A stretch of 64,000 nt of DNA from assembly GCA_000635495.1 (NCBI GenBank), contig JFLW01000041.1, positions 62,001 to 126,000 of the forward strand. Direction: 5' to 3'. The notes beneath the pieces were generated by a model, which worked only from the letters and a program-made list of their open reading frames with translations, was not told the DNA's origin and did not search any database. A program made the translations under genes and the position numbers. Origin of the DNA: Prochlorococcus sp. scB243_495K23. Its GTDB lineage: Bacteria; Cyanobacteriota; Cyanobacteriia; PCC-6307; Cyanobiaceae. This document shows, one piece after another, positions 2,168-10,012 of the stretch (position 1 is the stretch's first letter; each line of letters opens with the position of its first letter).

Positions 2168-2244
2168 CGCGGGGTAGAGCAGTCTGGTAGCTCGTCGGGC
2201 TCATAACCCGAAGGTCGGAAGTTCAAATCTTCTCCCCGCCACCA
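2168..2244 (+). tRNA. tRNA-fMet (CAT), initiator
   Basis: This is a 77-nt cloverleaf with CCA encoded. The anticodon loop reads CTCATAA, the anticodon stem carries three consecutive G:C pairs (GGG/CCC), and base 1 (C) cannot pair with base 72 (C). The last two are initiator hallmarks. The sequence closely resembles the E. coli initiator from the first base to the anticodon arm. A Rho-independent terminator follows 5 bases after the CCA. Its 3' half recurs at 9936-9982, marking it as an integration target. Confidence 0.95.
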
Positions 2245-2249
2245 TTTTG

Positions 2250-2273
2250 AAGCAGCTTCACAGCTGCTTTTTT
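2250..2273 (+). terminator. Rho-independent terminator of tRNA-fMet
   Basis: AAGCAGC (2250-2256) pairs perfectly with GCTGCTT (2263-2269) around a 6-base loop and is followed by a T run. Nearly the same hairpin follows the partial tRNA copy near 10 kb. Confidence 0.9.
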
Positions 2274-2290
2274 AGTGTTTACAATTAGTT

Positions 2291-2509
2291 TCAGTGATTA
2301 AGAATATTATTAGAAATCGTCAGGAAATGAGATGATTCTGCAACTAAGTCTATACTATCAAACATTCCTACTAATCCCTTTGCAGAGATTGGATTTCCAC
2401 TCGGTCTTACAGCCAAAAAATCCTCAGTTACGTTAGGTATTAGAAAAGAAGAATCTTCACTGGTTGCATAACCATTAATTAAATCTTCTATGGCTTTAGT
2501 ATTTGACAT
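2291..2509 (-). pseudogene. 5' fragment of a DUF3804/SnoaL-like protein gene
   Basis: The 72-residue frame begins with MSNTKAIEDLINGYAT and continues in a convincing way to about residue 60 (RPSGNPISAKGLVGMFD). It then loses character and stops 18 bases from the tRNA terminator. From memory, picocyanobacterial homologues (DUF3804, an NTF2/SnoaL-like fold) are about 120-130 residues, so roughly the C-terminal half is missing. Truncation exactly at the island edge fits loss during integration or excision. Family naming is from recognition and moderately sure; a short functional protein cannot be excluded. Confidence 0.55.
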
Positions 2510-2510
2510 T

Positions 2511-2531
2511 AAAAAAGGAGCTAATTTCTCC
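2511..2531 (-). terminator. Terminator-like hairpin on the minus strand
   Basis: GGAG (2517-2520) pairs with CTCC (2528-2531). Read on the minus strand it is followed by six T. It sits just upstream of the DUF3804 fragment, with no minus-strand gene left above it. The same arrangement next to the AGATCGACT motif occurs at 7449-7498, suggesting the 3' end of a lost gene. Confidence 0.5.
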
Positions 2532-2535
2532 TTAG

Positions 2536-2556
2536 TTTAGATCGACTTTCAATTGA
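2536..2556. repeat. AGATCGACT motif, copy 1
   Basis: The plus strand reads TTTAGATCGACTTTCAATTG. It is one of six copies in the island (others near 5853, 6058, 6423, 7476 and 9297). Three copies adjoin a short GGAG/CTCC-type hairpin. I did not see it outside the island. Confidence 0.6.
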
Positions 2557-2698
2557 AGTCTTATAAAACTACTTGACCTAAACCTTTAAAAAATTTTGCG
2601 CAGATACACAATAAAATACAATTATGTAACAGTAACGTATAGATTTAATATAAATACAAGTATATGTGACTAATTTCTTTACATTAATTAATATTAAT

Positions 2699-2716
2699 GT
2701 TACATTAGTTTACATA
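2699..2716 (+). promoter_or_regulatory. HLR1-type element (RpaB site) upstream of an hli cluster
   Basis: GTTACATT-AG-TTTACATA is two direct octamers separated by 2 bases. It fits the published HLR1 consensus (G/T)TTACA(T/A)(T/A)-NN-(G/T)TTACA(T/A)(T/A), bound by the response regulator RpaB in cyanobacteria. It lies 18 bases before the ATG of the first hli gene. A nearly identical element precedes the hli gene at 5494. High-light control is therefore likely. Confidence 0.7.
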
Positions 2717-2733
2717 AATTACTTTTTATAAAA

Positions 2734-2841
2734 ATGACCCCAGAAGCAGAAAGATTTAACGGTTGGGCAGCAATGCTCGGTTTCGTTGCAGCTGTTGGCG
2801 CATACGTAACAACTGGTCAAATTATTCCTGGTTGGTTCTAA
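2734..2841 (+). CDS. hli: High-light-inducible protein (HLIP), 35 aa
   Basis: The protein starts MTPEAERFNGWAAMLGF and ends TTGQIIPGWF, a single-helix chlorophyll a/b-binding-like protein for photoprotection of photosystems and pigment biosynthesis. The helix keeps ERFNG and the TGQIIPG tail, but the usual Arg of the NGR motif is Trp. The next hli gene starts at the last base of its stop codon (TAATG), so the two are translationally coupled. It is preceded by an HLR1 element. Confidence 0.9.
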   Translation: MTPEAERFNGWAAMLGFVAAVGAYVTTGQIIPGWF

Positions 2842-2975
2842 TGAAAAACACAAAAACAGTTGAGAAGGAAAAGGTTATAGCTGAGAAGCTTAACGGCAGA
2901 TTTGCAATGATGGGCTTTATTGCTCTTGTTGGCGCTTATCTAACAACAGGTCAAATTATTCCAGGCTTTGTGTAA
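2841..2975 (+). CDS. hli: High-light-inducible protein (HLIP), 44 aa
   Basis: The charged N-terminus (KTVEKEKVIAEK) is followed by the canonical EKLNGRFAMMGF helix and TTGQIIPGFV tail. It overlaps by one base both the preceding hli gene and the following microprotein gene. The protein is nearly identical to the HLIP at 5494-5649 in its last 36 residues, indicating duplication within the island. Confidence 0.92.
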   Translation: MKNTKTVEKEKVIAEKLNGRFAMMGFIALVGAYLTTGQIIPGFV

Positions 2976-3157
2976 TGCTCGAGGCAGGAATTAACACTTG
3001 GATTAACACTATACTTTTTCCTTTTATGCCAGTCATAACAGTATTTCTTGTTAGTGCATTAATGTTGAGTGATTTGTCATGGAATGATGATGATGACGAT
3101 GATGATGGCGGTGGATTAATCTCCCCGGTATATAACTACGTTCCCCAAGGAGCTTAG
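2975..3157 (+). CDS. Small membrane protein with an acidic Asp run, 60 aa
   Basis: One transmembrane segment (about residues 12-33) is followed by SWN, seven Asp and three Gly, then ISPVYNYVPQGA. It starts at the last base of the hli stop codon, so it is coupled to the HLIP genes. A related design (one TM segment, FGDDDDD and a short tail) is found in the broken gene at 7892-8041. Function unknown; co-occurrence with HLIPs suggests a thylakoid-associated stress role, which is inference. Confidence 0.75.
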   Translation: MLEAGINTWINTILFPFMPVITVFLVSALMLSDLSWNDDDDDDDGGGLISPVYNYVPQGA

Positions 3158-8792: not shown

Positions 8793-8869
8793 CCTTTTGA
8801 ATATTAAGTTTTATAAGCCTCTTTCAACATAGAACTAATATATTCATAATCTAAATCTTTAAAAAATAA

Positions 8870-9208
8870 TTACCCTGAGAATCCCATTTTCTGTTCTGCT
8901 GCCATTAATGAACCAACAAGCTTATGCTCAGCAACTTTTTCATCGTCAGTCATAACTGGCTTGATATCAAAATCTATATCAAACTTAACTTTCCAAGGAG
9001 CGAAGTGTTCTGTCATTTTTATACCTGCTGAAGCCTGGACAATAATATAAACATTATTTGAGTAAGAGGCATGATACCTCCCCAAAACTTTAAATCCTTC
9101 AAACTCATCATTCAAAGTTCCATCTTCAACAACCTTTAAAAAAAGATCGTAAGCTGCACCCATGAGAGCAACATTTTTAAAAGTTGCAGTTACTAAATAA
9201 GTATTCAT
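8870..9208 (-). CDS. DUF3303-like protein, 112 aa
   Basis: The protein contains FAPWKVKFDIDFDIKPVMT, which matches the FAPWRAKFGIHMEFTPV block of the protein at 25213-25530. Both have an N-terminal strand (YLVTATF or LFLADCQF) and a central VYIIVQA or VVCLCKA strand before the block. This is the DUF3303 ferredoxin-like alpha/beta fold of unknown role. Unlike the core-genome copy, this one sits in the island. It ends in a short helix (GSLMAAEQKMG). Confidence 0.7.
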   Translation of the reverse strand: MNTYLVTATFKNVALMGAAYDLFLKVVEDGTLNDEFEGFKVLGRYHASYSNNVYIIVQASAGIKMTEHFAPWKVKFDIDFDIKPVMTDDEKVAEHKLVGSLMAAEQKMGFSG

Positions 9209-9296
9209 TTGATTAATAAATCTAAAACTATTTCTAAGATATAGTATTTAAAATTGAGTTAAGGATCTTGAAATAAATACTTCTGCTTAAGGAATT

Positions 9297-9319
9297 ATTT
9301 TAGATCGACTGTCAATCTA
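9297..9319. repeat. AGATCGACT motif, copy 6
   Basis: TTTTAGATCGACTGTCAATC lies directly after the stop of the 45-aa ATGRKEAV gene (minus strand), as copy 5 does for the 44-aa paralogue. The whole gene-plus-motif unit was therefore duplicated. No GGAG/CTCC hairpin is kept here. Confidence 0.6.
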
Positions 9320-9326
9320 TAACAGA

Positions 9327-9464
9327 CTAAGTCATCTCGTAGCTATCGAATTTAGTTCTTAACTTTGCTGCTTTATGGATTAAAGCCACCGCTTCTTTTC
9401 TTCCAGTAGCATTATTAGCTTGGAGTATAAGGTCTTCATATTTTTTTACGATTTTCTTTTTCAT
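9327..9464 (-). CDS. ATGRKEAV-family small protein, 45 aa
   Basis: The protein starts MKKKIVKKYEDLILQANN and has the core ATGRKEAVALIHKAAKLR. It is a paralogue of the 44-aa protein at 7505-7639, with similarity running through the stop into the AGATCGACT motif. Function unknown. Confidence 0.75.
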   Translation of the reverse strand: MKKKIVKKYEDLILQANNATGRKEAVALIHKAAKLRTKFDSYEMT

Positions 9465-9476
9465 AGTTTAGATTAA

Positions 9477-9695
9477 ATGAAGACCGTTTTTAAATCTATT
9501 AGGAGTAGGAGATCTACTGCTTGAGATACGGAATCAACGGTAAAACATCAGAGTAAACAAATTGGAACGGGTTCACTCGTAGGAGTTATAAACGATCAAA
9601 TTGATTTTTGTAGGTATTTATTACTACATTATTCTCAAATAAAGACGGAATATTTATCAACCCGAATTTTTTTCGGGTTAAAGAAAATTGCCTGA
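9477..9695 (+). pseudogene. Small protein gene with in-frame TGA
   Basis: From ATG 9477 the frame gives MKTVFKSIRSRRSTA, then TGA (9522-9524). It then stays open for 56 codons (DTESTVKHQSKQIGTGSLVG, VINDQIDFCRYLLLHYSQ and so on) to a stop at 9693. The part after the stop is well-behaved protein. Trp at the TGA would give a 72-residue product. The 3' end runs through the inverted repeat at 9659-9679, so the original C-terminus may have differed. Confidence 0.5.
9659..9679. terminator. Inverted repeat AACCCGAA/TTCGGGTT
   Basis: Eight bases pair perfectly (9659-9666 with 9672-9679) around a short T loop. It lies just before the tandem repeat block. It could be a terminator in either direction or a protein-binding site near the att copy. 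Confidence 0.45.
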
Positions 9696-9700
9696 TTTTG

Positions 9701-9843
9701 TTACACGTGTAATATTGGTATCCTTAAAATCACTTGATATATCTATTAATTTAAAACTGTAGATGTTACACGTGTAATATTGGTATCCTTAAAATCACTT
9801 GATATATCTATTAATTTTAAACTGTAGATGTTACACTTGTAAC
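9701..9843. repeat. 65-bp tandem repeat with TTACACGTGTAA palindromes
   Basis: Unit 1 (9701-9765) and unit 2 (9766-9830) differ at one base. A third unit is cut after 13 bases. Each full unit starts with the palindrome TTACACGTGTAA. GTGTAACA recurs in inverted orientation at 9865-9872 and 9877-9884. The length is not a multiple of 3 and no protein is encoded. Lying 90-230 bases from the att-like copy, it may be arm-type recombinase sites or iterons. Confidence 0.85.
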
Positions 9844-9935
9844 ATCGAAAAACTGTTAAAGGTGGTGTAACAAGCCGTGTAACATCAGAAGTTAAACCCA
9901 TTACCATCAATGGTTTACAAGGAAAATAAGTAGGA

Positions 9936-9982
9936 CTCATAACCCGAAGGTCGGAAGTTCAAATCTCCCCCCCCCGCCACCA
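9936..9982 (+). repeat. Partial copy of tRNA-fMet (att-like site, right end)
   Basis: 31 bases (9936-9966) are identical to tRNA positions 2200-2230, from the anticodon loop through the T arm. The acceptor part is degenerate, with a run of nine C, but still ends GCCACCA. The 5' half of the tRNA is absent. Direct orientation relative to the intact gene marks the far boundary of the island. Confidence 0.9.
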
Positions 9983-9987
9983 TTTAG

Positions 9988-10012
9988 AAGCAGCTTCAAA
10001 GCTGCTTTTTTT
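9988..10012 (+). terminator. Duplicated tRNA-fMet terminator
   Basis: AAGCAGC (9988-9994) and GCTGCTT (10001-10007), followed by T, repeat the hairpin after the intact tRNA (2250-2273). The duplication therefore extends beyond the tRNA itself. The next 340 bases (10013-10355) hold only one doubtful small frame. Confidence 0.85.

Follow-up and report, generated by a model that had tools for sequence, protein, structure and literature searches.

An integrative element in the initiator tRNA gene

We conclude that the tRNA-fMet gene of this Prochlorococcus genome very probably received an integrative element whose integration module is of phage type, and that this element then lost its recombinase end, leaving a relic that keeps its HLIP cargo. 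The relic lies within the window, the whole 64 kb stretch of DNA analysed here. The tRNA-fMet gene (anticodon CAT; 2168-2244, + strand) was identified by ARAGORN and Rfam; ARAGORN finds no other tRNA gene in the window, and an Rfam search of positions 1-14000 at E ≤ 0.1 returned no RNA family besides tRNA. As the original prediction stated, 31 bases of this gene (2200-2230) recur identically at 9936-9966, and they belong to a longer repeat of 101 bp (2194-2291 against 9930-10029; 88% identical, 89/101 positions, E = 5e-29) that runs from the anticodon stem through the terminator. The second terminator copy and degenerate acceptor end that had been described are likewise present, the right copy having nine C where most relatives' tRNAs have seven. 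The right end had been placed at 10012; the repeat is there, but similarity ends a little further on, at 10029. A chance repeat is ruled out by this level of similarity together with shuffling, in which the 30-base core (up to 3 mismatches) found twice in the window had no match in 100 shuffles. At E ≤ 0.001 these two copies are the only ones in the host's own genome. The insert of about 7.7 kb is therefore flanked by a direct repeat of the 3' part of a tRNA (89/101), as in tRNA-targeting integrative elements.

Empty and occupied sites in relatives

Relatives support insertion at this point. Loci were sorted by the distance from the tRNA start to the start of a PetP-like gene (10573-10962, + strand, in the window), a flanking gene whose name comes from the earlier note alone and which is the first conserved gene past the element. 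Among 80 loci (79 distinct contigs, L065 and L069 being one), 66 were empty, with distances of 616-700 bp, 10 were occupied and 4 were unresolved. In the empty sites a single tRNA-fMet is followed directly by the sequence that the window carries after its partial copy, an arrangement set in advance as the test for strains without the element and aligned base by base in seven; no second att match was found in the empty loci within the locus sequence examined. The outcome that would have counted against an element, the same segment in all relatives, did not arise, and the uninterrupted site typical of tRNA-targeting elements is common (66/80). Empty sites also rule out a segmental duplication of the tRNA without insertion. 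An ancestral segment followed by later deletions is disfavoured because deletions would leave variable scars, whereas the 66 sites fall within 616-700 bp and the seven aligned ones are colinear.

The two flanks differ in origin. The right flank is common to empty sites, whereas the left flank departs from the seven aligned empty sites beyond the terminator and is there shared with other elements: over window positions 2168-2330, identity to the element left ends is 97-99% for E050, E083, E081 and E034, and 91% for E059. We thus delimit attL (2194-2330, + strand) as a tRNA 3' half, an element-type terminator and what remains of the left arm, and attR (9930-10029, + strand), from the repeat and the empty-site alignment, as a partial tRNA-fMet from the anticodon stem with the host's original terminator. 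The intact gene at 2168-2244 would then be a chimera of a host 5' half and an element-borne 3' half. The TTCTCCCC allele at its 3' end also occurs in the occupied loci L008, L014 and L050, and in 1 of 73 full tRNA copies outside occupied loci; this putative donor allele thus marks only 4 of 11 occupied loci, the window included, and the others read like empty sites there, which counts against the exchange.

Occupancy is scattered on the tree. All five relatives that share the window's starred clade have empty sites, and the 11 occupied rows need 11 changes, of which at least 6 are forced by starred branches; 34 of the 75 inner branches are open. A separate search of 400 family genomes was left out of the occupancy count. 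Among the matches listed from it, ten same-genus genomes had two matches, and inspection of the site at the listed match found five empty (G202, G245, G311, G382, G393) and four occupied (G399, G365, G220, G282); in G384 the site ended on the contig.

Loss of the recombinase end

The original prediction also held that no recombinase gene is left inside the insert, and tblastn with two members of the family described below detected no recombinase remnant there (best E 0.28); in this one respect the window departs from a tRNA-targeting integrative element, which carries a recombinase gene. Related elements in which the gene persists make the loss apparent. Window positions 2331-7030 are 97.2% identical to E050 19273-23962, and blastn blocks, junction sequences and the gene content of E050 place a deletion junction at 2330..2331, starting 86 bp after the tRNA. 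Missing there are about 8.1 kb, equivalent to E050 11174-19272, which in E050 hold the recombinase, an excisionase-like gene and left-arm GTGTAACA sites. The junction cuts the C-terminus from a DUF3804 gene (2291-2509, - strand), which retains 72 aa (PF12707 positions 1-65 of 128) against an intact ORF of 127 aa in E050.

E050 and E083 combine a 449-aa recombinase with the same cassette as the window; among the strains with elements at this site, AG-355-N18 and AG-914-D09 bear this HLIP cassette. The recombinase adjoins the tRNA in E083, E050, E081, E059, E046, E066 and E086; it is present in 6 of the 10 occupied loci and absent from the other 4 and the window. By sequence comparison, then, the window's element is a deletion derivative of recombinase-bearing elements at the same site, and the empty sites and these relatives together sustain the earlier reading of a decayed integrative element.

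These observations support the following history. Next to the asparaginase gene, the element inserted into tRNA-fMet, presumably through site-specific recombination with a crossover in the anticodon region. The tRNA 3' half and terminator that it carried became part of attL, and those native to the host now lie 7.7 kb further downstream, in attR. Some 8 kb were deleted later; with them went the tyrosine recombinase, the excisionase-like gene and the left-arm sites, and the DUF3804 gene was cut. What remains is probably an immobile relic retaining HLIP cargo.

The recombinase family and its phage relatives

The recombinase was found by reading the ORFs of the elements; that of E083 has no Pfam, PHROGs or NCBIfam match, only the E066 member matches phrog_1 integrase (3.5e-7), and none of the matches of a PF00589 search across 18 genomes lay at the fMet elements. 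The 449-aa protein aligns with the annotated integrase of cyanophage P-SS2 at 27% identity over residues 214-437 (E 1e-12), and on this alignment it is a distant relative. The R, K, H/Y, R, H and Y positions, which we take to be catalytic in this family, align in all nine sequences (K in eight, not P-SS2), the second-box position being Y rather than H. In hhalign comparisons, three of four other recombinase-like proteins gave a match (95.1, 95.8 and 99.5%); the exception, at 0.4%, was L107, whose PF00589 match is the strongest among the four. An AlphaFold model was poor (pLDDT 65, pTM 0.38), the C-terminal half being badly modelled, and a PDB sequence search with the family profile gave two weak matches (0.01), both to unrelated molecules. 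We regard the protein as a predicted tyrosine recombinase that would act at tRNA-fMet.

The resemblance to P-SS2 (GQ334450) extends to the attachment site: the phage attP, upstream of the integrase, holds the same tRNA-fMet segment (35/36 bases) and, judged by eye, a terminator, and a small ORF weakly like an excisionase follows on the other strand, paralleling the module of the elements. P-SS2 differs in being a 107 kb phage whose integrase is similar over half its length. If the element were not a cargo element but what is left of a prophage, derived from a temperate cyanophage like P-SS2, this might account for the shared attP segment and for the relatives' recombinase and HTH/excisionase-like genes, which resemble those of P-SS2 and phage contig L099. 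E066, another element at the site, has a capsid-protease fusion and a VapE-type helicase, and the E083 HTH protein weakly matches a terminase small subunit family (phrog_57, 0.0048). Against this, the proteins scanned (four of E083, three of E050, about ten of the window) gave no clear structural match, and in the 20 phage records listed among 299 with a match, the matching pieces amount to 4-5% of the insert and fall mostly in hli or hypothetical genes. Scans of viral contigs with the DUF3303 and MarR-type proteins recovered no relatives, and those two scans lend no support to virion packaging. We consider a prophage origin quite improbable.

A recombinase supplied from outside the relic, for example by a second incoming element, might yet mobilise it in trans. 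Both ends retain an intact att core and the right arm persists; elements without recombinase are common (4/10 occupied loci and the window), and two further tyrosine recombinase matches lie elsewhere in the host genome, on other contigs, one of which (L108) is distantly related to the 449-aa family. But the left-arm GTGTAACA sites are lost, and nothing close to the recombinase occurs in the host genome (no family match at E ≤ 1e-10); such mobility seems unlikely, if less so than a prophage origin.

Right arm and cargo

The right arm (9699-9884, + strand) comprises five copies of GTGTAACA and a 65-bp tandem duplication (array 9699-9842), and may contain arm sites bound by the recombinase. These five are the only GTGTAACA matches in the 64 kb window, where 0.74 are expected and 0 of 100 shuffles reach five. 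Left-arm copies, gone from the window, occur in E050, E034, E059, E081 and E083; elements at a greater distance (E046/E093, E066, E084, E086 and E092) lack the motif, a point against its general role.

Of the genome's 15 HLIP matches, 5 fall between the att copies, along with many small ORFs and both truncated and frameshifted ones, much as had been claimed of HLIP and microprotein genes, repeats and broken genes. The cassette (2734-3802, + strand) holds HLIP genes at 2734-2838, 2841-2972 and 3405-3530 (phrog_178/20629) and small ORFs at 2975-3154, 3173-3283, 3535-3624 and 3629-3802. Further HLIP genes follow at 5494-5646 (51 aa) and 6896-7021 (42 aa), both on the + strand, as are the frameshifted remnant (4200-4415) of an ORF that spans 84 aa in E050 and E008 and a conserved 72-aa protein at 6163-6378 (pN/pS 0.07, 4 comparisons). 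On the - strand lie a conserved 70-aa ORF (8580-8792; also in E083; pN/pS 0.15, 3 comparisons, 1 gapped copy dropped) and, near the right end, a 112-aa DUF3303 protein (8870-9208; PF11746 E 7.9e-12; also in E083 and E050; pN/pS 0.11, 5 comparisons). That the cargo has been kept, as originally proposed, holds in part: pN/pS is 0.00-0.15 in 8 of 13 insert ORFs, but gives no evidence of purifying selection at two of the five HLIP ORFs (2841 and 3405). The cargo may benefit its host.

The cassette has a counterpart in the hli cluster near psbA of cyanomyovirus P-RSM4 (GU071099), which combines HLIPs with a 60-aa acidic protein homologous to the window's. Amino acid identity to this region is 97% (2734), 74% (2841), 66% (3405) and 73% (2975), and the five HLIPs' best matches in P-RSM4 range over 61-97%; the phage cluster has no tRNA integration module within the 3.2 kb examined. 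Since phages have been suggested to transfer hli genes here (PMC2784084), the cassette might have arrived by transduction and homologous recombination, beside a tRNA repeat left by an older, unrelated duplication. Empty sites contradict this: no empty locus has a second att match within the locus examined, and the same right arm occurs, together with repeat and cassette, in E008, E016, E031, E034, E050 and E083. We give this reading very little credence and retain insertion of an integrative element.

Relation to known islands and significance

The locus is already published as an hli-rich island. The Prochlorococcus island at tRNA-Met and ansA (ISL2 in MED4) is described as small and, in both MED4 and MIT9515, as holding numerous hli genes, and ISL2-type islands share with the window the site beside asparaginase and the breakpoint at the tRNA (PMC2784084). 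Unlike the present account, the available portion of that description does not break the islands down into attL, attR, recombinase and deletion derivatives; the anatomy and the mechanism of loss are what is added here.

The label 'tycheposon-like' is reasonable for the element, tycheposons (Hackl et al. 2023, Cell) being known here second-hand from excerpts of citing papers. In these, tRNA-Met is one of seven target tRNAs in Prochlorococcus and elements span 4-200 kb (PMC10872708); the tRNA-fMet site, the size of about 7.7 kb and the HLIP cargo agree. Tycheposons are tRNA-bordered cargo elements (PMC10872708, PMC10187409), like the window's. Shared features are also the recombinase that the relatives of the window's element have at the tRNA and, among elements at the tRNA-fMet site, PhoX cargo and one case with a capsid gene. 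The window differs in having HLIP genes as cargo and no tyrosine recombinase beside the tRNA, and is accordingly filed as a derivative rather than an intact member. A picocyanobacterial integrase family at tRNA-Phe and tRNA-Cys, likened here by description alone, similarly places a tyrosine recombinase beside a tRNA in variable islands, at other target tRNAs (PMC10187409).

A broader proposal, which we hold about as probable as its negation, is that tRNA-fMet elements with a P-SS2-type att-recombinase-excisionase module shuttle phage-type HLIP cassettes into HLII Prochlorococcus and are then immobilised by repeated loss of the recombinase end (4/10 occupied loci and the window). Each insertion would swap the 3' half and terminator of the host initiator tRNA, so that mobile DNA would edit the initiator tRNA allele, visibly so in 4 of 11 occupied loci.

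The origin and decay of an hli-rich island at the tRNA-Met/asparaginase locus can thus be followed at the nucleotide level. Through its recombinase family the island is linked, if distantly, to a cyanophage with the same attachment segment, and the five small HLIP light-stress genes of the relic are themselves related to cyanophage-carried genes. The natural series of elements with and without recombinase can serve to test whether tRNA-targeting elements spread phage-type photoprotection genes.

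Empty and occupied sites at tRNA-fMet

The complete tRNA-fMet gene at 2168-2244 (ARAGORN and Rfam) is partly repeated at 9930-10029, where a copy running from the anticodon stem through the terminator is identical to it at 89 of 101 positions. The core of this repeat, with at most three mismatches, occurs twice in the window against none in 100 shuffles, and a search of the source genome (124 contigs, 1.62 Mb) found no third copy. The original prediction held that strains without the intervening element would carry a single tRNA-fMet followed by the window's right-flank sequence, and this is borne out in relatives, which are named Prochlorococcus with a few 'Synechococcaceae', are mostly single-cell genomes, and presumably belong to HLII. 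Among the best 80 of 256 loci retrieved with the asparaginase query (L065 and L069 being one contig in both directions), 66 are empty by distance, the PetP-like gene lying 616-700 bp from the start of the tRNA. Ten more are occupied, and the remaining four (L039, L070, L075, L079) stop too early or have no full tRNA. In a base-by-base alignment, seven of the empty sites follow the window's right flank colinearly, also in the stretch directly past the partial tRNA. L numbers denote loci as retrieved and E numbers those loci after orientation; E016, E031, E034, E050, and E081 were also extended along their own contigs.

In a tree built from the asparaginase gene and the DNA upstream of it (77 loci and the window, 78 rows in all, with L069, L075, and L079 excluded), the 11 occupied rows are scattered, requiring 11 changes, at least six of them forced by starred branches, in a topology with 34 of 75 inner branches open, fewer than half of the columns for L003, L027, and L034, and a long branch at L036. 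Shuffled occupancy labels average 10.4 changes, and occupancy is therefore not clustered. The other members of the window's starred set of six rows (L003, L004, L005, L007, L013) are all empty.

The full tRNA of the window has TTCTCCCC after the T-loop, as do those of L008, L014, and L050, and the remaining occupied loci have TCCCCCCC. Outside occupied loci, the 73 full copies divide into 70 with TCCCCCCC, 2 with TTCCCCCC, and 1 with TTCTCCCC, counting intact-core copies only, with some loci fetched twice. That last copy belongs to L022 (11011-11720), a site counted as empty that also has a different terminator and may be the scar of a lost element. Partial copies drift: five of six have none of the three alleles, against 0 of 88 full copies, a count that misses the mutated partial copies of E031, E050, and E083 visible in the alignment. 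The sequence beyond the window's left terminator is common to L014, L031, L034, L050, and L081, and nearly to L059, while the right flank is like that of empty sites. An element-type left flank and an empty-site right flank fit a crossover in the anticodon stem-loop, in which the element would have supplied the left 3' half.

The recombinase and its loss

Two relatives, L083 (on the same contig as L014, AG-355-N18; element of 14.7 kb) and E050 (AG-914-D09; 19.7 kb), share a layout in which a 449-aa ORF begins about 230 bp past the tRNA, followed by an HTH protein on the opposite strand, further genes, and the window's cassette of HLIP genes and small ORFs. Relative to the L083 protein, this recombinase is 98-99% identical in E050, E081, and E059, 61% in E046, and 41-42% in E066 and E086. 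At E <= 1e-10 it has matches, partly fragments or with stops, in 12 of 200 genomes drawn evenly from a larger set of the genus, and none in the window's own genome. Six of the 10 occupied loci of the asparaginase scan carry it (L014, L046, L050, L059, L066, L081) and four do not (L008, L016, L031, L034); the window likewise lacks it. In another genome (G378:C9:11008-12238), a recombinase of the same family is interrupted by several stop codons.

The left end of E050 matches window 2168-2330 (98.8%), and E050 19273-23962 matches window 2331-7030 (97.2%); the two blocks adjoin in the window, so about 8.1 kb is missing between 2330 and 2331, a stretch that includes the recombinase gene (E050 11317-12663). 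No microhomology can be seen by eye at the junction, which cuts a DUF3804 gene, leaving 72 aa compared to 127 in E050. Counted from the tRNA start, the match to the E050 left end extends for 110 bp in E016, 126 bp in E008, 153 bp in E031, 163 bp in the window, and about 270 bp in E034, and the losses of the recombinase end may therefore have been independent events. A literature search by titles and opening lines found no description of such deletion derivatives.

Catalytic positions of tyrosine recombinases align in the family, and over residues 214-437 the protein is 27% identical (E 1e-12) to what is annotated as a phage integrase in cyanophage P-SS2. Upstream of its integrase, P-SS2 itself has the tRNA segment with 35 of 36 bases matching, then terminator-like sequence, an arrangement that PMC2784084 describes for this phage. 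The E066 member matches the phrog_1 integrase at 3.5e-7, and IMG/VR contig L099 encodes a 44-45% identical recombinase, and its HTH protein shares 50% identity with the one in L083. Among four other recombinase-like proteins, a nine-member profile matched L106 (95.1%), L109 (95.8%), and L108, from the window's own genome (99.5%), but not L107 (0.4%), though this is the one that matches PF00589 most clearly. The E083 recombinase had no useful match in Pfam, PHROGs, or NCBIfam, and the AlphaFold model was poor.

The 64 kb window has five copies of the motif GTGTAACA, against 0.74 expected, and all of them lie within 9699-9884. Right-end copies are also found in E008, E016, E034, E050, and E083, and left-arm copies in E050, E034, and E059 (two each) and E081 and E083 (one each); none was found in the more distant E046/E093, E066, E084, E086, and E092. 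These repeats are candidate recombinase-binding sites. A 65-bp tandem duplication of the window's right arm is absent from eight aligned relatives.

Cargo

Five of the 15 HLIP matches in the genome lie inside the element; a 35-aa HLIP is 97% identical to one of cyanomyovirus P-RSM4, and the other four are 61-79% identical. Within the same left-end family, members with enough sequence (E008, E016, E031, E034, E050, E081, E083) have 3-5 HLIPs each, and E059, which ends early, shows none. HLIPs were not found in the complete elements E084 and E086, nor in E046, E066, E092, and E093, which are incomplete. With copies below 88% identity and one gapped copy left out, and the window common to all comparisons, pN/pS is 0.00-0.15 in 8 of 13 ORFs, 0.29-0.36 in three, 0.63 in the HLIP ORF starting at 2841, and 1.23, from six changes only, in that starting at 3405. 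All or part of the cassette is inverted, compared with the window, in L031:13855-17776, L083:14833-15435, and L034:9804-10409.

A near-palindrome, TTTAGATCGACTGTCAATC, recurs at 2538, 5855, 6061, 6424, 7479, and 9301 (up to three mismatches). Genome-wide there are 17 copies with at most one mismatch, against none for a reversed control, and three clusters account for 14 of the 17: the element (4), C86:121-152 kb (7), and C3:197 kb (3). Many copies, by eye, lie on the reverse strand and are directly followed by a hairpin, variable in sequence, and then a T run; the motif resembles a conserved 3' end preceding a terminator; Rfam gave no match to it in window 1-14000.

The consulted part of PMC2784084 reports a tRNA-Met and ansA island rich in hli genes in MED4 and MIT9515, like the element in site and content, and that of PMC10872708 cites tRNA-Met as one of seven tycheposon targets, a likeness to the element's tRNA-fMet site. 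At this same site, E050 carries PhoX (L050:15440-17242, an alkaline phosphatase in an element with the recombinase) and a polysaccharide lyase. E066 (L066:11237-17739), at the same tRNA, carries a VapE-type helicase and a capsid-protease fusion besides the recombinase, and in gene content it resembles a phage satellite. The unlike gene contents of E050 and E066 indicate that cargo varies between elements.
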